The position numbers and the translations under genes were made by a program. From an uncultured Gammaproteobacteria bacterium (GTDB lineage: Bacteria; Pseudomonadota; Gammaproteobacteria; Steroidobacterales; Foliamicaceae), in the NCBI GenBank assembly GCA_951828235.1, contig OX639965.1, positions 1 through 64,000 on the forward strand: DNA of 64,000 bases. The letters run 5' to 3'. Positions 10,749 through 24,788 of the stretch are shown here, in pieces (position 1 is the first letter of the stretch; each line of letters begins with the position of its first letter). The notes below the pieces were generated by a model. The model did no database searches. It saw only the letters and a list, made by a program, of their open reading frames with translations, and was not told the origin of the DNA.

Positions 10749-11513
10749 TTATCCAGCCTCCGGCGCGGCGACAGGCAGCAGCAACAGGTCAGGGGCAACC
10801 TGCTTGCGCGCGACCCGCAGGCCCTGGCGCACCTGGTTGCGGTAACTGCCGTCCAGATCGACCCAGGACCTGGAATCGTGGTCCCACATGCGCGTCGCGC
10901 TCAGGTCCGCGGTCTGATAAACAAGCGAAACGCGGCCGATGCGCAGCACATCCACTTCCAGCGTTCCGCCTTCATGGTCCACCGAGGCCTTGTAGGCTTC
11001 AATGGTGCGTCCATAGTCGTTCTCGATCTGGTATGCCTCGAGAACCTTGCGGAATTTCTCGGCAACCGTGACGTCCTCGCGCTCCATCAGCTCATAGAGT
11101 TCGCCTACCCGGCTGCGGCGCTCATCCAGCAGGAAGGGCGAATCCGCCTCGACGAACATGTCCAGCGACTCGATCATGCGCACCATCAGCGGCAGCATCT
11201 GGCGGCCGGTTGCCTCGACTTCGTCGATGGCCTGGTTCAACTTGCCGATATCGCTTTCCTGCCGGTCGATCTGCCGCTGCATCAGCGTATTGAAGACCTT
11301 CAGACCTTCGAGTTCCTTCAGCACCCGCTTGTATTCCGTCTCCAGCGAGTCCGTCTCCTTGACAATGTCGTCGATCCGATTCTGGGATTGCCTGCCGGCC
11401 TCCGCCCGATCGGCCTGAACGTCCTCGATCTCCTCCAGCGTCGTGGCTCCCGCCAGCGCGGCTGCAGCCAGCAGCGCCCCGGCGCACAACGACCCCCTAA
11501 GAATTGGCTTCAT
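10749..11513 (-). CDS. DUF3450 family exported coiled-coil protein
   Basis: A 254-residue protein with a signal peptide (ILRGSLCAGALLAAAALAGA) and a long coiled coil (VKETDSLETEYKRVLKELEGLK ...), then a small C-terminal domain with RVSLVYQTADLSATRMWDH. DUF3450 proteins are regularly encoded first in TonB/ExbB operons of this type, but their biochemical role is not known. ATG 11513 is preceded by GGGGAGC. An open frame extends further upstream but lacks a ribosome site and would bury the signal peptide. It is the first gene of the operon running to 3919. Confidence 0.88.
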   Translation of the reverse strand: MKPILRGSLCAGALLAAAALAGATTLEEIEDVQADRAEAGRQSQNRIDDIVKETDSLETEYKRVLKELEGLKVFNTLMQRQIDRQESDIGKLNQAIDEVEATGRQMLPLMVRMIESLDMFVEADSPFLLDERRSRVGELYELMEREDVTVAEKFRKVLEAYQIENDYGRTIEAYKASVDHEGGTLEVDVLRIGRVSLVYQTADLSATRMWDHDSRSWVDLDGSYRNQVRQGLRVARKQVAPDLLLLPVAAPEAG

Positions 11514-11712: not shown

Positions 11713-11740
11713 TTGACATGCGGGCTGCATGGCGCATAAT
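11713..11740 (+). promoter_or_regulatory. Sigma-70 promoter of the leu-his unit
   Basis: A perfect -35 box TTGACA (11713-11718), a 16-bp spacer and CATAAT (11735-11740; 5 of 6 to consensus) precede the leader peptide. The expected transcription start is near 11747, only about two bases before the leader ATG (11749), so the leader would be translated from an almost leaderless mRNA. This is one of the strongest promoter matches in the window. Confidence 0.75.
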
Positions 11741-11748
11741 CCGCGCAC

Positions 11749-11853
11749 ATGAACGTTCGCCGCCCAGCCCTGAGGCTCCACGCAGCCGCTATTGGCCTGC
11801 GTCCGGCTGCGCTCGCACTGCTTGCGGGGCACCTAAAGCGGGGTAAGGAATAG
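11749..11853 (+). CDS. Candidate leucine leader peptide (LeuL-like), 34 aa
   Basis: A short ORF directly after the promoter, from ATG 11749 to TAG 11851-11853. It holds seven Leu in 34 residues (positions 8, 10, 17, 22, 24, 25, 29), with the run LALLAGHL near the end, plus one Ile. The final codons (CTA AAG CGG GGT) contain the antiterminator strand of the attenuator downstream. Leader peptides like this sense charged tRNA-Leu by ribosome stalling. There is no recognisable Shine-Dalgarno sequence, consistent with leaderless initiation. The Leu enrichment is moderate because Ala is also frequent, so the call rests on position and on the alternative RNA fold. Confidence 0.6.
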   Translation: MNVRRPALRLHAAAIGLRPAALALLAGHLKRGKE

Positions 11854-11918
11854 GCCCGGGCAACTGAAAACGCCTCTTTTCGAACCCCGCTAACCGAACA
11901 CCGGATGCGGGGTTTTTT
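11837..11918 (+). terminator. Transcription attenuator upstream of leuA
   Basis: The terminator is AACCCCGC (11883-11890) paired with GCGGGGTT (11907-11914), followed by a T-run (11913-11918). A competing strand AGCGGGGT (11837-11844), inside the last codons of the leader ORF, is exactly complementary to ACCCCGCT (11884-11891) and would block the terminator. The logic fits classical attenuation. A ribosome stalled at the Leu codons leaves 11837-11844 free to form the antiterminator. A ribosome that reaches the TAG covers that strand, so the terminator forms. leuA starts 36 bp after the T-run. Confidence 0.75.
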
Positions 11919-11953: not shown

Positions 11954-13537
11954 ATGAACCAGCAAGCCGATAAGGATCGCGTTCGCATTTTCGACACCAC
12001 CTTGCGCGACGGCGAACAAGCGCCTGGCTGCAGCATGACGCTGCGCGAGAAGCTCAAGGTGGCGCGGGCGCTCCGTGACATGCGGGTCGACATCATCGAG
12101 GCCGGCTTTGCCGCGGCCTCGCCGGGTGACTTCGAATCCGTGCGGGAAGTTGCCAGCACGATCAAGGGGGTCACGATCTGTTCGCTGGCGCGCTGCCACG
12201 AAGGCGACATCGAGCAGGCTGCCAGGGCCCTGGAACCGGCGGCCCGCAAGCGTATCCACGTGTTCGTCGCGACCAGCGAGATACACCGCAAGTTCAAGCT
12301 GGAAATGGAGCGCGAGGAAGTCCTGCGCCGCGCGGTGGAGGGCGTGCGCCTGGCCAGGCAGGCCTGCGACGACGTGGAGTTCTCTCCCGAGGACGCCTCG
12401 CGCACCGAGCCTGAGTTCCTGACCGAAATCGTCAGCGCGGTCGTGGAGGCTGGCGCCACCACGGTCAATATTCCCGACACCGTGGGTTACGCGATGCCGG
12501 AGCAGTTCAAGGAGCTGTTCGAGCATCTGCGCGCCACGGTTCCCGGTATCGAGGACGTGGTGTTGAGCGCCCACTGCCACGACGACCTTGGCCTTTCGGT
12601 CGCCAACAGCCTGGCGGCCGTGGCGGGCGGCGCCCGGCAGATCGAATGCACCGTCAACGGGATCGGCGAGCGCGCCGGCAACTGCTCCCTGGAAGAGGTG
12701 GTCATGGCGCTCAAGGTGCGCGCCGATTTCTTCGGCCTGAAGACCGGGATTGAGACCACCGGACTCTACCCCGCCAGCCGGCTGGTCTCCAGCGTCACCG
12801 GCATGCACCCGCCGCGCAACAAGGCCATCGTGGGCAAGAACGCCTTCGCGCACGAAGCGGGCATTCATCAGCACGGCATGCTCAAGCACTCCCAGACCTA
12901 CGAGATCATGCGTCCCGAGTCGGTGGGCATGCACCGCTCCAACCTGGTGCTGGGCAAGCACTCCGGGCGGCACGCCTTCCGCGACCGCACCCGCCAGCTC
13001 GGTTTCGAACTGAGCGAGGACCAGCTGAACCGGGCGTTCATCGAATTCAAGAAACTGGCCGACCGCAAGAAGGATCTGTTCGACGCAGACATCGAGGCCC
13101 TGATCGTGCACAAGGACAGCGCCGCGATGGGCCCCTGGCGCTTGCGCGAACTGCGCATCAACACCGGTGGCAGCACCCTGGCGGTGGCGGCCGTGCGCCT
13201 GGAACACGACAGCGGGGAACAGCGCGACGAGGCGGCCGTGGGCGACGGTCCGATCGACGCCACCTTCAAGGCGCTGGAACGGGCAACCGAAATGAGCGTC
13301 GAACTGATCCACTTCGACGTGCGCAGCGTCACGACGGGCGAGGATGCACAGGGCGAGGCCACCGTTACGGCACGCTGGGGCGACTCCTCGTATCGCGGCC
13401 GCGCCGTCAGCACCGACATCGTGGAAGCCGGCGCCGAAGCCCTGCTGGAAGTGCTCAACCGTGTGCTGCGCGCCAAGGCGCGGCTGGATTCCGGAAAAGC
13501 CGCCAAACGGGGGCCGCGCAGGCGCCTTGGGCCGTAA
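11954..13537 (+). CDS. leuA: 2-isopropylmalate synthase
   Basis: A 527-residue LeuA that condenses acetyl-CoA with 2-oxoisovalerate, the first committed step of leucine synthesis. It shows the N-terminal FDTTLRDGEQAPGCSM substrate/metal motif, the HxH metal ligands in LSAHCHDDLGLSVANS, and GIGERAGNCSLEEV. The C-terminal regulatory LeuA dimer domain (from ~residue 390) binds leucine for feedback inhibition. ATG 11954 is preferred to a GTG at 11921 that overlaps the attenuator T-run. A five-codon ORF (11940-11957) ends in an ATGA overlap with this start and may help initiation, as the ribosome site is weak. Confidence 0.95.
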   Translation: MNQQADKDRVRIFDTTLRDGEQAPGCSMTLREKLKVARALRDMRVDIIEAGFAAASPGDFESVREVASTIKGVTICSLARCHEGDIEQAARALEPAARKRIHVFVATSEIHRKFKLEMEREEVLRRAVEGVRLARQACDDVEFSPEDASRTEPEFLTEIVSAVVEAGATTVNIPDTVGYAMPEQFKELFEHLRATVPGIEDVVLSAHCHDDLGLSVANSLAAVAGGARQIECTVNGIGERAGNCSLEEVVMALKVRADFFGLKTGIETTGLYPASRLVSSVTGMHPPRNKAIVGKNAFAHEAGIHQHGMLKHSQTYEIMRPESVGMHRSNLVLGKHSGRHAFRDRTRQLGFELSEDQLNRAFIEFKKLADRKKDLFDADIEALIVHKDSAAMGPWRLRELRINTGGSTLAVAAVRLEHDSGEQRDEAAVGDGPIDATFKALERATEMSVELIHFDVRSVTTGEDAQGEATVTARWGDSSYRGRAVSTDIVEAGAEALLEVLNRVLRAKARLDSGKAAKRGPRRRLGP

Positions 13538-13594: not shown

Positions 13595-14533
13595 ATGAGC
13601 GCACAAGCGGAATGGATCTGGCACGACGGCGAAATCAAGCCGTACATGGAGGCCCAGACGCACGTCATGACGCACGCGCTGCACTACGGCACCTCGGTTT
13701 TCGAGGGCATTCGCTGTTACGCAAGCCACCTGGGGCCGGTAATTTTCCGGCTGCGTGCGCATACCCGGCGAATGTACAACTCGGCCAAGATTTACCGGCT
13801 TAAGATTCCGTACACGCCGGACGAAGTGAACGACGCCTGTCGCCAGGTCATTGCCCGCAACCAGCTGTTTGAAGGCGCGTACATCCGTCCGATAGCATTT
13901 CGCGGCGCCGGCGACCTCAGAATCCTGCCGTCGGCCAGCGTTCCGGTGCATGTTGCGGTCGCCGCCTGGCAATGGGGTTCGTACCTGGGCGGTACGGACG
14001 ACGGCGTGGACGTATGCTGCACATCCTGGCAACGGGTGGCGCCCAATACCGTGCCTGCATTGGCCAAGGCGGGCGGAAATTACCTTTCGAGCGTTCTGGT
14101 CACGCTTGAAGCCCAGGAGAACGGCTACGTCGAAGGACTCGCAATGACCCATGACGGACTGGTCAGCGAAGGCGCGGGCGAAAACGTCTTCGTGGCGGTG
14201 GCCGGCAAGCTCTACACCCCACCCTACTCCGCCTCCATCCTGCCTGGGATTACCCGCGACACGGTGATCAAGCTGGCCAGAGGGTTGGGTATTGCAGTGA
14301 TCCAAGAGGCCCTGCCGCGCGAGGTGCTCTACATCGCGGACGAAGTGTTCCTGGCGGGCACGGCGGCGGAAATCACGCCGGTTCGCAGCCTGGACCGCCT
14401 GACCATCGGAAACGGCAAGCCCGGCGAGCTGACCCGGGCCCTGCAGGACGCGTTTTTCGGGCTGTTCGACGGGCGCACGGCCGACCCACGCGGATGGCTG
14501 GAGCCGGTGGAAGGCATCGAGCAGGAGGACTGA
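13595..14533 (+). CDS. ilvE: Branched-chain amino acid aminotransferase
   Basis: A 312-residue class IV PLP aminotransferase that performs the last step of leucine, valine and isoleucine synthesis. Visible features are the [16 protein letters not shown] start of the family, IRPIAFRG, the PLP lysine in [13 protein letters not shown], and the [12 protein letters not shown] and [13 protein letters not shown] blocks that bind the cofactor phosphate. Start ATG 13595 follows GGAG by about 10 bases. It lies between leuA and leuC, so the leucine pathway from condensation to transamination is in one transcription unit. No deviation from the family is seen. Confidence 0.93.
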
Positions 14534-14538
14534 TCAAG

Positions 14539-15945
14539 ATGCCGGAACAGACCCTGCTCTCAAAGATCTGGGACGCGCACGAAGTCGTCCCCGAAACGCC
14601 GGACACGCCGGCGGTGCTCTACATCGACCTGCACCTGGTGCACGAGGTCACGACGCCGCAGGCCTTCGACGTCCTGCGCGCGAGCGGACTGCCGGTGCGC
14701 CGGCCGGACCGCACGCTGGCGACCATGGACCACTCGACGCCGACGGAGCCGGCTTCCACCCTGGAGGAACTGGAGAAGGTAGCGCTGCCCGCGGCGGCCG
14801 CCCAGGTCCGCGCCATGATTGAGAACTGCGAGGAGTTCGGCGTGGAGCTGCGCGGGCTGGACAGTCCGGAACGCGGAATCGTGCACGTTGTGGGCCCCGA
14901 GCAGGGCGCCACCTGGCCCGGGCACACGGTGGTTTGCGGAGACAGCCACACCAGTACTCACGGCGCCTTCGGCGCGCTGGCCTTCGGCATCGGCACCACC
15001 GAGGTGGGCCACGTGCTTGCCACGCAGTGCCTGCTGCAGCGCAGGCCGGGGGCGCTGGCGGTAAACGTGAGCGGCCGCCTGGGTCCCGGCGTGACTTCCA
15101 AGGACCTGATCCTGGCGATCATCCGCAAACTGGGCGTTGGCGGCGGAACCGGGCGGGTCCTGCAGTATCGCGGCGAAACCATCCGGGCGCTGACCATGGA
15201 GCAGCGCATGACCATGTGCAACATGAGCATCGAGGCCGGCGCCCGCGCCGGCATGGTGGCCCCGGACGACACGGCCTACGAATGGCTGTACGGGCGCCCC
15301 ATGGCGCCGGCCGGCGCCGAATGGGACGCTGCGCTTGCCGGCTGGCGCGAACTCGAGGACCGCGGCCATGCGGAGTTCGAAGGGGAAGTGAGCCTGGATG
15401 CCGGCCAACTACGCCCGATGGTGACCTACGGCACCAATCCCGGAATGTCGGCGCAGATCGACGAACCGGTGCCCGGAAGCGGCGTTCCCGCCATCGACAA
15501 GGCGCTGGCCTACATGGGCGTGGAGCCGGGCAAACCGTTGCAGGGACGCGAGGTGGACATCGTGTTTCTCGGCAGCTGCACCAATTCCCGGATGAGCGAC
15601 CTGCGCTCCGCCGCGGAACTGATGCGCGGACGCCGGGTGGCGGACAGCGTGCGCATGCTGGTGGTGCCGGGATCGCAGATCGTAAAGCGCGAGGCCGAGG
15701 CCGAGGGCCTGCACGAGGTTTTCCTGTCGGCGGGCGCCGAATGGCGCGAAGCCGGCTGCTCGATGTGCATCGGCATGAACGGCGACACGGTGGGCGCCGG
15801 AAAACTCTGCGTCAGCACCAGCAACCGCAACTTCGAAGGCCGGCAGGGACCGGGCGCGCGCACCGTCCTGGCCAGCCCGCTGACCGCTGCGGCCAGCGCC
15901 ATACGGGGCCGCGTGGCGGACCCGCGCGAGCTGATGGACGGCTGA
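14539..15945 (+). CDS. leuC: 3-isopropylmalate dehydratase large subunit
   Basis: A 468-residue aconitase-family protein of normal LeuC length. The 4Fe-4S cluster ligands are in [13 protein letters not shown] and SMCIGMNGD (the C...CxxC pattern: the GSCTNS Cys, then C-S-M-C). The N-terminal DHSTPT and [30 protein letters not shown] blocks are typical. ATG 14539 is chosen because AGGAGG lies 12 bases upstream; an earlier frame start has no ribosome site. It works with LeuD to isomerise 2- to 3-isopropylmalate. Confidence 0.96.
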
Positions 15946-15958
15946 GCGAGGGAGCGTC

Positions 15959-16531
15959 ATGGAAAAAATCATCCGCATCCAGTCGCGCACGGTCGTCCTC
16001 GATATCGACAACGTCGACACCGACCAGATCATTCCCGCGCGCTACCTCACGACCACCGGGCGCGACGGCCTGGGAGAGGCGGCCTTCCATGACTGGCGGT
16101 ACGCCAAGAGCGGGGAGCTCAACCCCGATTTCGTGCTCAACCACGCGGAGAACCGGGGCCGCACCATCCTGATCGCGGGCGACAACTTCGGTTGCGGCTC
16201 CTCCCGTGAACATGCCCCGTGGGCACTGCTGGACATCGGGCTCAAGGCCGTGATCAGCACCAGCATCGCCGACATCTTCCGCAACAACTCGCTCAAGAAC
16301 GGCTTCGTTCCGGTCGTGATCGATGAGAAGCCCCACCGCTGGCTGCTGGCCAACCCGGGAGCGGAAATCGCGATCGACCTGGAGCAGGCGCAGGTCGAAC
16401 TTCCCGACGGGCCGCCCTGCCCGTTCGAGATTGACCGTTTCGCGCGCTACTGCCTGATGAATGGCGTCGATCAACTCGGTTACCTGCTTCAGCAGAGCGA
16501 CCGGATCAGCGCCTGGGAGGCCAGCCATTGA
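15959..16531 (+). CDS. leuD: 3-isopropylmalate dehydratase small subunit
   Basis: A 190-residue LeuD with the swivel-domain motif FGCGSSREHAPWAL, NVDTDQIIPARYL near the N-terminus and IFRNNSLKNGFVPV. It is the partner of LeuC, 13 bp downstream of it, with a GGAG ribosome site before ATG 15959. The stop TGA overlaps the TTG start of leuB (TTGA at 16528-16531). Length is slightly short of the E. coli 201 residues, which is normal for the family. Confidence 0.95.
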   Translation: MEKIIRIQSRTVVLDIDNVDTDQIIPARYLTTTGRDGLGEAAFHDWRYAKSGELNPDFVLNHAENRGRTILIAGDNFGCGSSREHAPWALLDIGLKAVISTSIADIFRNNSLKNGFVPVVIDEKPHRWLLANPGAEIAIDLEQAQVELPDGPPCPFEIDRFARYCLMNGVDQLGYLLQQSDRISAWEASH

Positions 16532-17589
16532 CGTCCCTCATTGCCGTTCTTCCCGGCGACGGAATCGGGCCGGAGGTCATGTGCGCGGGCCTGCGCGTGC
16601 TGCGGGCCACGGCTGCCCGGAATTCGCTGGATATTGAAACGCGCGAAGCGCCGTTCGGCGGCAGCGCGCTCGAACAGCTCGGCAATCCCTTCCCCGCTGC
16701 AACGCGCGACCTGTGCCTTGAGGCCGACGCGGTACTGCTGGGCGCGGTCGGCCTTCCGGGCCCGCCGCCGGCGGATCCGGCCCTGCGCCCGGAACAGGGC
16801 CTGCTGAATCTGCGCGCGCTGCTCGGCGTCTACGCCAACCTTCGCCCGATACGGCCCTTGCCGGGCGCTACCGACGCCTCGCCGCTACGCGCGGACAAGC
16901 TGGCCGACGTGGACCTGATCGTCGTGCGGGAGCTCACCGGCGGCGTCTATTTCGGCGACAAGCAGGAAGGCGACGACAAGGCCAGCGACCTGTGCAGCTA
17001 CAGCAGCGAAGAAGTCGAGCGGGTCGTACGCTATGCCGCGGACCTCGCGCGCAACCGCCGCGGCCGGGTGACTTCCATCGACAAGGCCAACGTTCTGGCC
17101 ACCTCGCGCCTGTGGCGGACGGTTACGAGCCGCGTCATGGCCGACGAGTTTCCGGAAATCGAACTTGAGCATCTGCTGGTGGACGCCGCGGCGATGCGTC
17201 TGCTGACCCACGCCGCCCGGTTCGACGTCCTGGTGACCGAAAACATGTTCGGCGACATCCTCACTGACGAAGCTTCGGTACTGACCGGCTCGCTGGGAAT
17301 GGCGCCTTCGGCGTCCGTCGGAGAAGGCCGGCGGGCCCTGTACGAACCCATTCACGGCACCGCGCCGGATATCGAGGGCCGCAACGTGGCGAACCCCTGC
17401 GGCATGATCCTTTCCGTAGCGATGATGCTGGAATTGAGTCTGGACAGCCCCCGGGCCGCGCGTGAGGTCGAAGCGGCAGTCGCCGCCGCCATCGCCGACA
17501 ACGTGCGCACGGCGGACATTGCGGGCGAAGGGCCGGCCGCGTCAACGGAAGAATTCACCGACGCGGTGCTGGACCGCCTGAAACCATGA
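16528..17589 (+). CDS. leuB: 3-isopropylmalate dehydrogenase
   Basis: A 353-residue isocitrate/isopropylmalate dehydrogenase. It opens with LIAVLPGDGIGPEVM. The substrate-binding region VVRELTGGVYFG, the VTSIDKANVLATSRLWR motif and the metal and NAD region FDVLVTENMFGDILTDEAS then GSLGMAPSASVG are all present. The start is a TTG that overlaps the leuD stop, so translation is probably coupled; no upstream alternative exists without a deep overlap. The stop overlaps the hisG start as ATGA (17586-17589), linking the leucine and histidine sections. Confidence 0.96.
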   Translation: MTSLIAVLPGDGIGPEVMCAGLRVLRATAARNSLDIETREAPFGGSALEQLGNPFPAATRDLCLEADAVLLGAVGLPGPPPADPALRPEQGLLNLRALLGVYANLRPIRPLPGATDASPLRADKLADVDLIVVRELTGGVYFGDKQEGDDKASDLCSYSSEEVERVVRYAADLARNRRGRVTSIDKANVLATSRLWRTVTSRVMADEFPEIELEHLLVDAAAMRLLTHAARFDVLVTENMFGDILTDEASVLTGSLGMAPSASVGEGRRALYEPIHGTAPDIEGRNVANPCGMILSVAMMLELSLDSPRAAREVEAAVAAAIADNVRTADIAGEGPAASTEEFTDAVLDRLKP

Positions 17590-18491
17590 CATCGAAATGG
17601 AAGCGCAGCGAGCGCGTACAGATCGCAGTACAGAAGTCCGGCCGGCTCACCGAACACTCACTGGCGCTGCTGAAGCGCTGCGGCCTGCGGCTCACGCAAG
17701 GCGCCGACGAACTGCTGGTGGTGGCGGAAAACATGCCCGTGGACGTGCTGCTGGTGCGCGACGACGAGATTCCGGGCCTGGTGCGCGACGGCGCCTGCGA
17801 CCTGGGCGTCGTCGGCCTGAACGTGGCCGAGGAGCAGCGGCTGGGGCTGGAGAGCGGCCAACCCGCCCCCGCGAGCATCCGCAGCCTGGCGTTCGGCGAT
17901 TGCCGCCTGTCGATGGCCTATCCCAGGGACGGCGAGGCGCGTCGGGTCGGCGATCTTGAGGGTCTGCGCGTCGCTACGAGCTACCCGCGTCTGACCGCAC
18001 AGTTCCTTGCCGGAGCCGGCGTGGATGCGGAAGTTGTCCCTTTCTCCGGCGCCGTGGAACTGGCGCCGCGCCTGGGCCGCGCCGAAGCCATCTGCGATCT
18101 GGTTTCCAGCGGCAAGACACTGGCGGCCAACGAGCTCAGGGAAGGCGAAACAGTGCTGGAGAGCCGCGCAACGCTGCTCCTTAGCCCCGCTGAATTACCG
18201 GCCGCGCGCAGGGACACGGTCGAACTGCTCAAGCGCCGCATGGACGGCGTCATGCAGGCCCGCGAAACCAAGTACATCATGCTGCACGCACCGCGCGCCG
18301 CGCTGGCCACCATCGCGCAGCTGCTTCCCGGATCCGAGGCCCCCACCATCATGCCCCTGGAAGGGCGCGATGACCGCGTGGCCGTGCATGCGGTTTGCCG
18401 GGAAAGCGTCTTTTGGGAGACGCTGGAGGCCCTCAAGGATGCGGGCGCCAGTTCCGTGCTGGTATTGCCGGTGGAGAAGATGCTGGAATGA
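17586..18491 (+). CDS. hisG: ATP phosphoribosyltransferase (long form)
   Basis: A 301-residue HisG, catalysing ATP + PRPP to phosphoribosyl-ATP, the first and feedback-controlled step of histidine synthesis. The N-terminal QIAVQKSGRLTEHSLALLKRCG and the PRPP loop AICDLVSSGKTLAANELRE are present. The C-terminal ~75-residue ACT-like domain (KYIMLHAPRAALATIAQLLPG...TIMPLEG) marks the homohexameric long form with its own histidine regulation, so no hisZ is needed. It is coupled by ATGA overlaps to leuB upstream and hisD downstream. Confidence 0.96.
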   Translation: MTSKWKRSERVQIAVQKSGRLTEHSLALLKRCGLRLTQGADELLVVAENMPVDVLLVRDDEIPGLVRDGACDLGVVGLNVAEEQRLGLESGQPAPASIRSLAFGDCRLSMAYPRDGEARRVGDLEGLRVATSYPRLTAQFLAGAGVDAEVVPFSGAVELAPRLGRAEAICDLVSSGKTLAANELREGETVLESRATLLLSPAELPAARRDTVELLKRRMDGVMQARETKYIMLHAPRAALATIAQLLPGSEAPTIMPLEGRDDRVAVHAVCRESVFWETLEALKDAGASSVLVLPVEKMLE

Positions 18492-19798
18492 CGCCGATCC
18501 CGCCTCTCTACCACTGGAACGGCTTGGACCGGCAACAGCGTCGATCGGTCCTCGAGCGTCTGGCCGCTCCCGCCGACCCTGCGCTGGCGGCGCGCGTGAA
18601 GGACATCATGGAGCAGGTGCGCACCGGCGGCGACCAGGCGCTCAAGAGGCTGGAAGCGGAGCTGGACGGCGTGGAACTCGACGGGATCGAAGCCGGCGAA
18701 AAGGAGATCGCGGAGGCCGGCGATCTCCTTACTGGACGACAGCGCGACGCGATTCACACCGCACTGGAGAACATTCGCGCCTGCCACGCGGCCCAGAAGC
18801 CCGGGGACACCCGCACCGAGCCGGTTCCCGGTGTGGTTTGCGAGCAGCGATATCGTCCCTTGCATGCGGTCGGCTTGTACGTGCCGGCCGGCTCCGCCCC
18901 CCTGCCCTCCACGGCCATGATGCTGGCCGCGCCGGCGCAGTTGGCCGGCTGCCAGCAACGTATTCTTTGCGCGCCGCCCGCCGCCGACGGCAACATCGAC
19001 CCGGCGATCCTTTACGTGGCGCAACAATGTGAAGTGCACCGCGTGTTCAAGCTGGGTGGGGCCCAGGCAATCGCTGCGATGGCCTACGGCACCCAAAGCG
19101 TCCCCCGGGTCGACAAGATCTTCGGGCCCGGCAGCCGTTGGGTTGCCGCAGCCAAGCAGCGGGCGGCGATGGAGCCGGGCGGACCGGCGCAGGATCTCCC
19201 CGCGGGCCCGACCGAGGCCATGGTCATTGCCGACCACAGCGCAAACGCCGAATTCGTCGCTCTGGACCTGCTGAGCCAGGCCGAACACGGAGAGGACGCA
19301 CACGTACTGCTGCTTTGCCTGGACGAGAAGCTGGCCACGGCGGTCCAGGAAGCCATCGCCGGCCAGTTGCGCACCCTACCCCGCACCGACGTGCTGGAGA
19401 AATCGCTGTCGTCCGGCGCCTTGCTGGTCGTGGATTCCCTGGATATGGCCGTCGAATTGGCCAATCGCTACGCTCCCGAGCACCTGCTTCTGCAGGTCGC
19501 GGACCCGCGCTCGCTGATGGCGACAATCCGCAATGCGGGCGCCGTGTTTCTCGGGCCCTGGTCGCCGGAATCCAGCGGCGATTACTGCAACGGCGCCAAT
19601 CACGTGCTGCCCACCTATGGAAGCGCCCGCTGGGCCAGCGGCCTTGGGCTTGCCGATTTCTACAAGCGCATCAGCGTTCAGGAACTTACGCAGGAGGGCC
19701 TGGGGAGCATTGCGGGCTCCATTGCCACGCTGGCCCGCACCGAGGGACTGGAAGCCCACGCGCGCGCCGCGGAAGTGCGCCGGAGGCTGGAACCATGA
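18488..19798 (+). CDS. hisD: Histidinol dehydrogenase
   Basis: A 436-residue HisD that performs the last two oxidations to histidine. Motifs include [17 protein letters not shown]-type sequence ([17 protein letters not shown]), [14 protein letters not shown], the [10 protein letters not shown] block, [13 protein letters not shown] with zinc ligands Gln and His, and APEHLLLQ plus GANHVLPT toward the end. The start at ATG 18488 overlaps the hisG stop. An upstream in-frame ATG would lie inside hisG and is not favoured. The stop overlaps the start of the amidohydrolase gene. Confidence 0.95.
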
Positions 19799-21117: not shown

Positions 21118-22857
21118 TCAATCCGCGAAGAATGGATGGCCGGCCACCGGCGGGCGCGGCATATTCCCCGAAGGCTTGCGCAGGGTCAACTCGTCGAACA
21201 GCAGGTCCGGAACCGATACGCTTACAAAATTTCCCCAGAAATCTGGAATGCCCGATTGAAAGCCGGATCCCGGCGAGGGATAGATGAATGTGTACAGCGT
21301 TGATGAATCCGAGGCGGCGACGATTTCCTTGAACATGGAATCCGCGATTCCCGAGAATTCCGCGGCTTGCATCAGTTCCTCGCGTCCGTCCCGATAGACC
21401 TTGTAGGCCAGGGTGGCGTCGTCGACGCCGGACTTCGATCCGGACGCATTGGAACCAGAAACCGGCGGCGGCCGATACCCGGGGTTGCCGAGCCGCCTGA
21501 TGACGACTCCGAACTCCGCCTGCCTTTCTTCAACCAGTAACATCAACTCGGCGAGCATCTCTTCGCGGCTCAAGCCTCGCCGCGAAGTTACGAGCAGGTT
21601 GCTCGGCGCCGCTCTCCGACCGCGCCGGTTACCGGTGCTGGCGTTCACACCCCGCACCGGGTTTCGCGTCGTGAGCAGCGTCTTGAGGACGCCGTTCTCC
21701 ACAAGGGACGTGGACCCGGCCGAGATCGCCTCGTCGTCGACGGCATAGCCGCCAAGGAAACCTTCACTTCCGAGCGTGGCGTCGTCTCTCACGCTCAAGC
21801 CCCTTGCCATCACCCGCGCTCCGAGTTTGTCCGTAAACGGGTTCTCCGTCTCGCCGGTAGAAACAGAAACGCCTGGCGGAAGGTCCTTGAATGGCGCGCG
21901 GGTCCCCACCATTCTCGGCGCCAGCAATTGCGCGACCAGCTCCGCCGCCGCCTGTCCTTCGAACAGCACCGGCCCGATATAGTTGTCGATTGAGGCGGCG
22001 GACCGCCGCGCGGCAAGCCCCTGCCCCATCGCGGTCACGCGGGCGGTCAAGTCTTCCTGGCCGGCGATTTCATCCCAGGATGCTCCGTATGCCGCCACGA
22101 AATCGCTCAGGACTGAACCGTCGGGCGCCTGTGTATGGGCCACCACGTTCAGGTAGGCTGCAGGATCGTTGCGGATAAAGGACGAGCCTTCGCTGTTCAC
22201 GTAGTACGTCCGCCGGTAGCGAACGGCGGCCCGCGCCCCGGACTCCATGACGTGCGGCATCCCCGTAAACAAACCCGACAGGCGCCGCACGAGCGATTGA
22301 ACTTCCGTCAGTGGCGGCAAGCGACGGTCCGGCTCTTCGATGTAGACGTACGGTTCCGCGGGGCTCAAGTCGCCGAGTTCCTCGGAGGCTGTCTGGCTCT
22401 TGAAGGCCGCTCTCTTTGCGGCCAGACTTTCCAGCGCTTTCTTGTAGGCAGTATCCGTCGCGAGCCAGATCTGCCGCCGCAATTCGACCATGTCGTCTTC
22501 AAGCGGCAACAACGCGGTGGTCGGCGAAAAACGGTCCCACAAGGACAGTGACAGGAAGTTCGTATTGTCGAAAGAAGAATCACCGACGCGCACTTCCACC
22601 GTCAGTCGCCGCGTGCGCCTGGCCAGGCTTGGCAACAGTGCGCCGAAGCTGGCCTGGGTACCCATACGCTCGGTATCCCGAACGGTGTAAGAGACAAAAT
22701 AGGGGGCCTCCAGGTCCTCCATTCGAAGCTCCGCGACCGTGCGCGCCAGTTCGTCCCGCATGGCCCGCATGAGCGCATCCTCGCCCGACGCCGCCAAAGC
22801 GGGCAATGAAAGACAGAAGACGAAACCGAATATTGCCCAACGCAATGGCATCTTCAT
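21118..22857 (-). CDS. Exported TldE/PmbA-like protein (no HExxxH)
   Basis: A 579-residue protein with a signal peptide (LRWAIFGFVFCLSLPALA) and the TldD/PmbA fold. Where its neighbour has EASGVFFHEILGH, this one reads EGQAAAELVAQLLAP, so the metal-binding HExxxH is gone. It therefore corresponds to the non-catalytic TldE/PmbA subunit. The C-terminal region lacks the metal Cys too. It is the downstream member of a two-gene minus-strand pair, 26 bp after the tldD-like gene. Cytoplasmic TldD/TldE is a heterodimeric protease, so this looks like an exported version of that pair. Substrate unknown. Confidence 0.82.
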   Translation of the reverse strand: MKMPLRWAIFGFVFCLSLPALAASGEDALMRAMRDELARTVAELRMEDLEAPYFVSYTVRDTERMGTQASFGALLPSLARRTRRLTVEVRVGDSSFDNTNFLSLSLWDRFSPTTALLPLEDDMVELRRQIWLATDTAYKKALESLAAKRAAFKSQTASEELGDLSPAEPYVYIEEPDRRLPPLTEVQSLVRRLSGLFTGMPHVMESGARAAVRYRRTYYVNSEGSSFIRNDPAAYLNVVAHTQAPDGSVLSDFVAAYGASWDEIAGQEDLTARVTAMGQGLAARRSAASIDNYIGPVLFEGQAAAELVAQLLAPRMVGTRAPFKDLPPGVSVSTGETENPFTDKLGARVMARGLSVRDDATLGSEGFLGGYAVDDEAISAGSTSLVENGVLKTLLTTRNPVRGVNASTGNRRGRRAAPSNLLVTSRRGLSREEMLAELMLLVEERQAEFGVVIRRLGNPGYRPPPVSGSNASGSKSGVDDATLAYKVYRDGREELMQAAEFSGIADSMFKEIVAASDSSTLYTFIYPSPGSGFQSGIPDFWGNFVSVSVPDLLFDELTLRKPSGNMPRPPVAGHPFFAD

Positions 22858-22883: not shown

Positions 22884-24593
22884 CTAACCTGGATCGGCGG
22901 GTTCGAGCGGCGGCGGCAGCAGCGGGGGACGGTCCTGGGACTTGGATTTTTTCTGCACTTCGATCTGGGAAACGAGTATGGAAGGCGAGGCCGCGGAAAC
23001 CGGCACTGCGCCCGACTCGGCGCCGCAGATGCCGTTGAATACCGCAACCTGGTCGTCCCCCGCCACCACGCGGCTCAAGGTGGTCAATGGCGTGCCGATC
23101 AGGTCCACGCCCCGAACCAGTTCCTCGCTTCCGTCGGGATATACCCGGTAGACCACCAGCGGCGTTACGTTGAACGAATTGGGCAAAATGCGGCCAGTGG
23201 TCGTGAAACCGCCCTGGATCTGCTCGAAGCGCAGCCCGAAGGGCTTGCCCTCCCTTTCTATATCCGCAACCAGCCGCGCGTTCAGTTCCTGCCTGGAAAG
23301 CGGCTCGGCTACTTCCACAATCAGATTGGACTGCCTTGAGACGGTCTTGTGGCCGGGCTCCTTGCGACCGTGTCCATTGGAGGAAGCAAACCCGTCGATG
23401 GGAGAGCGCGACATGAGAAAGTTCCTGAGTATCCCGTCTTCAATGACTGTCACGCGCCGGGCTTCGATGCCCTCGTTGTCGAAACGATAGGCGCCGGCCA
23501 GATCGGTTTTCCCGTAGTGCCAGACCGTGGGATCGAAGTAGACCGAAAAGCTTTCCGGCAGCAGGCGCGCGCCGACCTGTTTCCTGAACGTCTGGCCTTC
23601 AGACTCGCTCTTTTGCCTGTGCCCTTCGACCCGATGACCCAGGATCTCGTGAAAGAACACGCCGCTGGCTTCTCCTGCCAGGATCGCCGGCCCCGTATAG
23701 GGATCCACCAGCGGCGCCTCTCGAAGCGCAAGCAGAGTGGCGATCATTTCGGCAACGTCCTGTTCCACGGTCCGGTCGTCGGGGAGCCCGGCCGGATTGA
23801 GCGCGAAATAGCTCAGGTAAAGCGGCAGTTCCATGCCGTCGTCGGCCTTGGTCCGGGCGGAAACAAAGAGCCTGTAGGCCGTCTGCGAGGATCGCAGCGC
23901 CGAATCCTCGCTGTTGACAAACCAGCGCGTCTCCACTGCGGCTTCGAACCGGGCCCTGCCGTCGTAAATCTCTCCGTGTTCGGCAAACGGGGCCGTATAG
24001 CGCTCCACTTTCCCTTGCCACTGACTCAAGTCCGCCTCAAGCGGAGGCATCGCCTCGACCATCCTGAACGCCGGCGCGGGAGAGAAGTCGCCGGCCTTGT
24101 CCTCTTTTTCCACCTTTACCTGCACGTCGGTCTCAACGCGGGTGAACCGCTCCAGCGCGCGCTTGTAGTGCTTGTCGGTGTGCGACCAGAGCACTGCGCG
24201 CATCGCATTGGCGTCATCTTCAACGGGAACCTGGACAGCAGTCTCGGGAGCTATGCGAAAAAACACCCGTTGATCGCGTAGCCGGCGAGTATTGTCGAGT
24301 TCGTAATCGCCTACTCGCAGATCGATGTCGAGTGTGCGCATGTGCCCCTTGTCACTTGCCGTCAATGCGCCGAACTCGGCGGCAACGACGAAACCCCTGG
24401 TTTCGGTAATCTCGTAGCTGAGGAAATAAGGAGGCACTTCCTCGTTCCCGAGCGCCTGCATGGAGCGGTCGAGTTCCGTCCGCATCGCCTGGAGCAGGAC
24501 ATCTTCCTGGGCCTTCAGAGGAAACCCGGTAAGCGCGAGAACGCCAAGATAGGCGGTCATCAAACGCCGCGCATGGGGGGGAGGCGAATTCAT
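22884..24593 (-). CDS. Exported TldD-like metallopeptidase
   Basis: A 569-residue TldD-family peptidase. An n-region HARR and the hydrophobic AYLGVLALTGFPLKA indicate a signal peptide when translation starts at 24593. The metal site HEILGH (residues 315-320, HExxxH) is intact, and a Cys in FNGICGAESGAVPVS sits where E. coli TldD has its third ligand. It is encoded just upstream of the TldE-like gene on the same strand. The gene pair divides the his genes: it lies between the amidohydrolase and hisC, which read in the other direction. ATG 24560 is an alternative start. Confidence 0.85.
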   Translation of the reverse strand: MNSPPPHARRLMTAYLGVLALTGFPLKAQEDVLLQAMRTELDRSMQALGNEEVPPYFLSYEITETRGFVVAAEFGALTASDKGHMRTLDIDLRVGDYELDNTRRLRDQRVFFRIAPETAVQVPVEDDANAMRAVLWSHTDKHYKRALERFTRVETDVQVKVEKEDKAGDFSPAPAFRMVEAMPPLEADLSQWQGKVERYTAPFAEHGEIYDGRARFEAAVETRWFVNSEDSALRSSQTAYRLFVSARTKADDGMELPLYLSYFALNPAGLPDDRTVEQDVAEMIATLLALREAPLVDPYTGPAILAGEASGVFFHEILGHRVEGHRQKSESEGQTFRKQVGARLLPESFSVYFDPTVWHYGKTDLAGAYRFDNEGIEARRVTVIEDGILRNFLMSRSPIDGFASSNGHGRKEPGHKTVSRQSNLIVEVAEPLSRQELNARLVADIEREGKPFGLRFEQIQGGFTTTGRILPNSFNVTPLVVYRVYPDGSEELVRGVDLIGTPLTTLSRVVAGDDQVAVFNGICGAESGAVPVSAASPSILVSQIEVQKKSKSQDRPPLLPPPLEPADPG

Positions 24594-24788
24594 AGGACGA
24601 TCACTAGCATATCGGTTCAGCCCCAGAATGAATATAGCACATTCCACGGCGCGTCGGACGGGTTCGGGCGATGCCGACGCGCAGCGTGAGAAACGCCTCG
24701 GAGCGGCAGGAAATTTACAATTATTACAGCGTCTTATGGTACCATTCGCGCTTTGCGTGCGCACTCCGGGAATCAGGTACAAGAACCG

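Follow-up and report, generated by a model that had tools for sequence, protein, structure and literature searches.

The DNA analyzed here, to which we refer as the window, is a stretch of 64,000 nt from contig OX639965.1 of assembly GCA_951828235.1, which derives from an uncultured Gammaproteobacteria bacterium (Steroidobacterales; Foliamicaceae). All features described below lie on its plus strand unless noted otherwise. The leuA gene for 2-isopropylmalate synthase (11954-13537), recognized by homology and by protein relatives in the same position, is followed by genes for an IlvE-like class IV branched-chain aminotransferase (13595-14533; Pfam PF01063), leuC (14539-15945; PF00330), leuD (15959-16531; PF00694), leuB (16528-17589; PF00180), hisG (17586-18491; PF01634/PF08029) and, as the last co-directional gene, hisD (18467-19798, with an approximate start; PF00815). 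The leuB and hisG genes overlap by 4 nt, and the order leuA-ilvE-leuC-leuD-leuB-hisG-hisD is shared by six other genomes of the genus; the leu-his unit named in the initial annotation of this DNA is thus real as a gene arrangement. In two genomes of the genus (L114 and L116), hisCBHA comes directly after hisD, and hisG-hisD-hisC-hisB are contiguous. The his operon of a related family likewise lies behind leuB, 0.9-2 kb away. Within the window, two long minus-strand ORFs (21118-22857 and 22884-24782) part hisD from hisC between positions 19798 and 24782. From the co-directional gene order, the overlap between leuB and hisG, and the conserved arrangement, we infer co-transcription into hisGD; read-through from the leucine attenuator described below is therefore likely.

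The region in front of leuA carries a sigma-70-type promoter (11713-11740) with a TTGACA box (11713-11718), a 16 nt spacer and a CATAAT box (11735-11740). Its description as near-consensus was borne out: it matches the consensus at 11 of 12 positions and is the sole promoter-like site in the 1.6 kb between positions 11000 and 12600 (mean of 0.1 in shuffled sequences). Promoters were recognized by consensus only throughout this study. Eight nucleotides past the promoter begins a leader ORF of 34 codons (MNVRRPALRLHAAAIGLRPAALALLAGHLKRGKE*; 11749-11853), which contains seven Leu codons, among them the putative sensing codons of an LALL run (codons 22-25; 11812-11823). The leader ORF is followed by an intrinsic terminator (11882-11918) consisting of AACCCCGC, a 16 nt loop and GCGGGGTT with a TTTT tract; written with its T-run it reads AACCCCGC...GCGGGGTTTTTT, and its loop holds a small CCG/CGG inner stem. 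Our automatic terminator scan did not detect this structure because the 16 nt loop exceeds the length that the scan allows. An antiterminator 5' arm (AGCGGGGT; B strand; 11837-11844) is located within leader codons 30-32 and is a perfect complement of ACCCCGCT (C strand; 11884-11891), a segment that can pair either with B to form the antiterminator or with the downstream arm D to form the terminator; pairing, consensus folding and conservation all point to this arrangement. The B:C stem reaches further, into the region of the stop codon. The pattern AGCGGGGT..ACCCCGCT..GCGGGG occurs once in the 64-kb window and in none of 100 shuffles. There is weak support for an upstream hairpin that may form within the leader ORF (11805-11833): it appears in MFE and consensus folds, and the outlier species of the genus cannot form several of its pairs. 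The fold of the leader as a whole was no more stable than that of shuffled sequences (z -0.45), and since this difference is not significant we left whole-leader stability out as evidence. All of the elements that had been proposed for 11713-11918 were present where they had been placed, correct to the base.

We compared the window species with seven genomes of the genus whose LeuA proteins are 90-95% identical. In the aligned upstream regions, the TTGACA box, the 16-nt spacing, the CATAAT box, the start and frame of the leader ORF, the B and C strands and the terminator were found in all eight species; the conservation of leader ORF and alternative stems, which the initial annotation had named as a check, was thereby borne out. 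The consensus-fold alignment covers the leader and the antiterminator stems only, as the relatives in it end before the terminator. Conservation sets in abruptly at TTGACA: in the 100 nt that precede this box, 93% of the positions vary among the eight species, in comparison with 42% of the promoter, 50% of codons 1-16, 35% of codons 17-34 and 61% of the segment from the stop codon to C. The terminator varies least within the leader region, at 9 of 37 positions (24%). Codons 2-16 change most often at third positions, which points to translation, while codons 17-34 conserve their third positions too, which points to constraint on the RNA.

The leader start is kept in the eight species, and no indel shifts the frame; one species stops two codons later. 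Leu8, Leu10, Leu17 and Leu25 are invariant. The seven Leu codons counted in the initial annotation are present, but one of them, the CTA codon for Leu29, is found only in the window species; six relatives have Arg (CGA) and the outlier has Gln at this position, so that codon 29 is not a conserved sensing codon. A ribosome stalled there would cover B. The leader Leu codons disfavor CTG, the favorite of the genome: 73 of 95 are non-CTG, compared with 244 of 549 in leuA (odds ratio 4.1; p 4e-9, an optimistic value because related species are not independent). The Leu run of the window genus is short (LALL) and is reduced to scattered Leu codons in the genus outlier (L010/L035; GLRALARGRLAKR), where the stop codon comes two codons later and the promoter, B, C and the terminator are kept; its leader is possibly a weakened attenuator. 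Seven Leu residues in 34 codons are by themselves weak evidence, and the comparative data carry the case.

We therefore turned to the regions upstream of leuA in the same order and in 80 GTDB loci. Where leuA opens the operon, a leader and the same type of terminator (AACCCCGCAC...GCGGGGTTTTT) are also found outside the genus, namely in two other families of the order (L011 and L012; L021 and L025), in a Chromatiales MAG (L040) and a related Gammaproteobacteria MAG (L039), in a Rhodanobacteraceae MAG (L102), in Dyella nitratireducens (L104) and D. japonica (L107), in a Lysobacteraceae isolate (L106), in Dokdonella (L109) and in Arenimonas oryziterrae (L112). Leu, Val and Ile residues form runs at the ends of these leaders, for example LALLL, LVLLLLL, LLLIDLLLL, LDLLL and LVLVLLI, and independent leaders with longer runs occur in other families (e.g., MSYTTVFQTIADRAPGVGRILVLLLLLASREKRWCGHQTG and MSQRNSHDRIAEPIRPPTVAGLLRLRTNLLLALVLVLLITNGGAG). 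Seen against these stronger runs, the weaker LALL of the window genus makes sense. In the leaders of L104, L107, L112 and L109, an invariant GGAGGTGCGGG stands directly before the stop codon, with GGTGCGGG as the B strand; the GGAGG within it looks like a ribosome-binding site, yet the leader stop comes next. At loci without a leader, other genes lie directly upstream of leuA (by eye, the apparent 3' ends of ilvC or ilvA), and the absence of a leader is expected there. In the window species' own genome, we found no local leader before ilvB or trpE.

RNA polymerase normally starts about 7 nt past the -10 box. The distance between this box and the leader ATG is 8 nt in the window and 7 nt in two relatives, so that the 5' untranslated region of the leader should comprise 0-2 nt, with transcription predicted to start at 11747-11749; position 11747 is two bases before the ATG, as had been proposed. 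The initial annotation had called such a leaderless start unusual for an attenuator. The same promoter spacing recurs in comparable leuA leaders: the arrangement TTGACA-N16-18-(-10 box)-N6-8-ATG followed by an ORF of 20-60 codons was found in 22 of 106 leuA upstream regions, each time with a perfect TTGACA, and did not occur in a reversed control. Four of the 22 duplicate genomes of the genus that the count already includes. When the 100 nt ahead of each leader ATG were searched for their best promoter, all lineages but L021/L025 gave a TTGACA box with 6-8 nt between -10 box and ATG. Hence, the leaderless start predicted from promoter spacing looks conserved among the 22 leaders. The L021/L025 leader (MISNTIRHSAALLLIDLLLLSRRHAGT) has the terminator, no TTGACA promoter at leaderless spacing and a perfect B:C match of only 5 bp, and may represent either a leadered variant or a different antiterminator. 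TTGACA promoters with a -10 box 5-9 nt before an ATG number 13 in the window species' own genome and 3 in the control, which suggests that leaderless initiation is used by this organism and that the genes concerned probably give rise to other leaderless mRNAs. Such sites in the genome (G000) lie at 2277200 (L123), 194033 (L124), 782287 (L127) and 2755455 (L129), among others; judged by eye, the genes behind them include an apparent gene for ribosomal protein S20 and several antitoxin-like genes.

The register of the B:C pairing differs by lineage: it is AGCGGGGT:ACCCCGCT in the window genus, GTCGGGTGCGG:CCGCACCCGAC in L011, GGGAAGCGGG:CCCGCTTCCC in L040 and GGTGCGGG:CCCGCACC in Dyella and its relatives. 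That the register shifts between lineages while complementarity is kept argues for selection on the pairing. The longest perfect B:C match is significant in part only, with a p value of about 0.02 in the window against shuffles of the GC-rich leader and values from <0.001 to 0.2 in other lineages, and when partners were swapped between lineages, native pairs could not be told cleanly from foreign ones by their perfect matches. Gapped duplex energies for shuffled and swapped B:C pairs proved noisy because bulged pairings add energy, and the longest perfect match was used in their place. The case for an antiterminator strand that is freed by a stalled ribosome and competes for the 5' arm of the terminator draws its strength from all lineages pooled.

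How the position of the ribosome would bear on this competition was modeled by folding the RNA ahead of it for each A-site codon, with the front edge of the ribosome set 15 nt from the P site. In equilibrium folds that include the complete terminator, the window favors B:C when Leu24 or Leu25 occupies the A site, and C:D from codon 27 onward. Such equilibrium folds give a clear switch in the close relatives of the window species and not in most other lineages; in several relatives C:D wins over B:C at every ribosome position, so that antitermination there would need B:C to form first. With D not yet transcribed, as would be the case at the moment of decision, C is captured by the leader side in the other lineages up to the codon that directly follows the hydrophobic run, and the window species keeps C occupied to codon 32, past the expected switch; in these model folds the delay is apparently due to an extra GGGC after the stop codon. 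Across 15 leaders, counted with footprints of 13, 15 and 17 nt, the ten codons up to the switch hold 60-68 Leu, compared with 26.7 in shuffled leaders (p < 0.001).

Collectively, these data support the earlier reading of the locus as a leucine attenuator: its parts are conserved in the genus, stronger Leu runs occur in other families, and the geometry of stems and ribosome fits. The parts, their conservation and the fit between stall site and stems are established from the sequence and its comparison. A short ORF with codons for the amino acid of the pathway precedes a conserved intrinsic terminator that lies ahead of the first structural gene, and the leuA leader very probably functions as a ribosome-mediated transcription attenuator that senses the supply of leucyl-tRNA and controls leuA-ilvE-leuC-leuD-leuB and, via read-through, hisG-hisD. 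In the mechanism that we propose, RNA polymerase would start about two bases before the leader ATG, and a 70S ribosome would probably initiate on the leaderless message. With charged Leu-tRNA in ample supply, the ribosome would pass LALL, reach the stop codon and cover B, whereupon C would pair with D and transcription would end at the T-run. When Leu-tRNA is short, it would stall at codons 22-25 with its front edge just upstream of B; B:C could then pair, the terminator would be blocked and the operon transcribed.

The same device might instead sense branched-chain amino acids in general, Leu together with Val and Ile. The leaders of Dyella, Arenimonas and their relatives do mix these residues (LVLVLLI), and the operon includes a branched-chain aminotransferase gene; in the window genus, however, it is LALL that stands just before the switch, two species lack the only central Ile (codon 15) and Val3 varies, so we regard this broader specificity as unlikely. 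Less probable still is a transcript that begins further upstream and has a normal ribosome-binding site. That the promoters at the leuA leaders were called by consensus leaves some room for it, but no Shine-Dalgarno-like sequence precedes the leader ATG, and both the sharp onset of conservation at TTGACA and the 6-8 nt spacing in all 22 comparable loci speak against it.

Two readings that dispense with the ribosome as the sensor are each very improbable. A plain terminator behind a chance ORF, acting as a promoter-proximal terminator or yielding a small RNA, would agree with the modest Leu content of the genus leader and with the RNA of about 170 nt that the terminator alone would release; it does not accord with an ORF kept in frame in eight species with invariant Leu codons, with long Leu runs at the same place elsewhere, or with the position of B just past the Leu codons. 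The unusual conservation of third positions in codons 17-34 indicates that RNA structure matters, as it would if a riboswitch or an RNA-binding protein controlled antitermination via the B, C and D stems. But B and the stems already explain the conserved RNA, the placement of the Leu run would be left unexplained, and no Rfam family matches the leader or its relatives: a search of the window at gathering and permissive thresholds returned no meaningful match, and eight related loci had no family match at the gathering score. Leucine attenuation by a translating ribosome accordingly remains the reading that we prefer, and we regard the stretch as a real, classical Leu attenuator whose leader peptide is probably leaderless.

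In the leu operon of enterobacteria (leuL-leuABCD; Rfam Leu_leader), a Leu-rich leader peptide that uses less common Leu codons is combined with mutually exclusive antiterminator and terminator structures. The present locus resembles this system in each of these traits and in its position before leuA; it differs in lacking a ribosome-binding site before the leader and in lacking an Rfam match, so that by sequence it falls outside the described Leu leader family, and its operon holds ilvE and runs on into hisGD. The mechanism is classical; less usual are the absence of a ribosome-binding leader and the presence of histidine genes downstream. No leaderless attenuator from Gammaproteobacteria turned up in our literature search; Vitreschak et al. 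2004 (cited in PMC10117765), reportedly the main comparative study of proteobacterial attenuators, lay outside this search, and we therefore claim no priority for the leader peptides. Leaderless leaders are known from other bacteria. In Sinorhizobium meliloti, the trpL RNA begins at the leader AUG, the terminated RNA (rnTrpL) is a small leaderless mRNA, and translation of the leader has been seen by Ribo-seq (PMC7298713, PMC10117765); trpL has the kind of leaderless start that is predicted here and differs in its amino acid (tryptophan), its gene (trpE), its occurrence in Alphaproteobacteria and its leader of 14 codons. The leuL1 (leuA) and leuL2 (leuS) leaders of Streptomyces lividans are leaderless Leu leader peptides, as predicted here; leuL2 is followed by a hairpin resembling an intrinsic terminator, whereas leuL1 differs from the present locus in lacking a typical terminator (PMC8079986). 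Identity with the actinobacterial LEU element of leuA, a pseudoknot in which a Leu codon run pairs with the leuA Shine-Dalgarno box and no terminator is involved (PMC1262725), was ruled out by the intrinsic terminator 35 nt before leuA. The passage of PMC9031893 that cites Canestrari et al. (2020) describes leaderless polycysteine short ORFs before a biosynthetic operon in mycobacteria; these Cys leaders have a leaderless sensing ORF of the kind predicted here and differ in amino acid, in their occurrence in Actinobacteria and in having no obvious terminators (PMC1262725).

Tentatively, and at slightly less than an even chance, we propose that leaderless leaders are the general, possibly ancestral form of leuA attenuation in several gammaproteobacterial lineages, including Dyella, Dokdonella and Arenimonas, and that in the window genus histidine genes have come under the control of this Leu attenuator, which would make histidine synthesis responsive to leucine supply. 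Should the leaderless start prove correct, attenuation would need no ribosome-binding site and would rely on 70S initiation at the 5' end of the RNA, and leucine synthesis would be tied to conditions that favor leaderless translation. The released RNA of roughly 170 nt would, like rnTrpL, be a small mRNA that is itself leaderless; in Sinorhizobium both rnTrpL and its peptide act in trans. The same layout in cultured Dyella and Arenimonas makes these predictions testable at the bench, and the link to hisGD offers a testable case in which the attenuator of one amino acid may drive the genes of another pathway.
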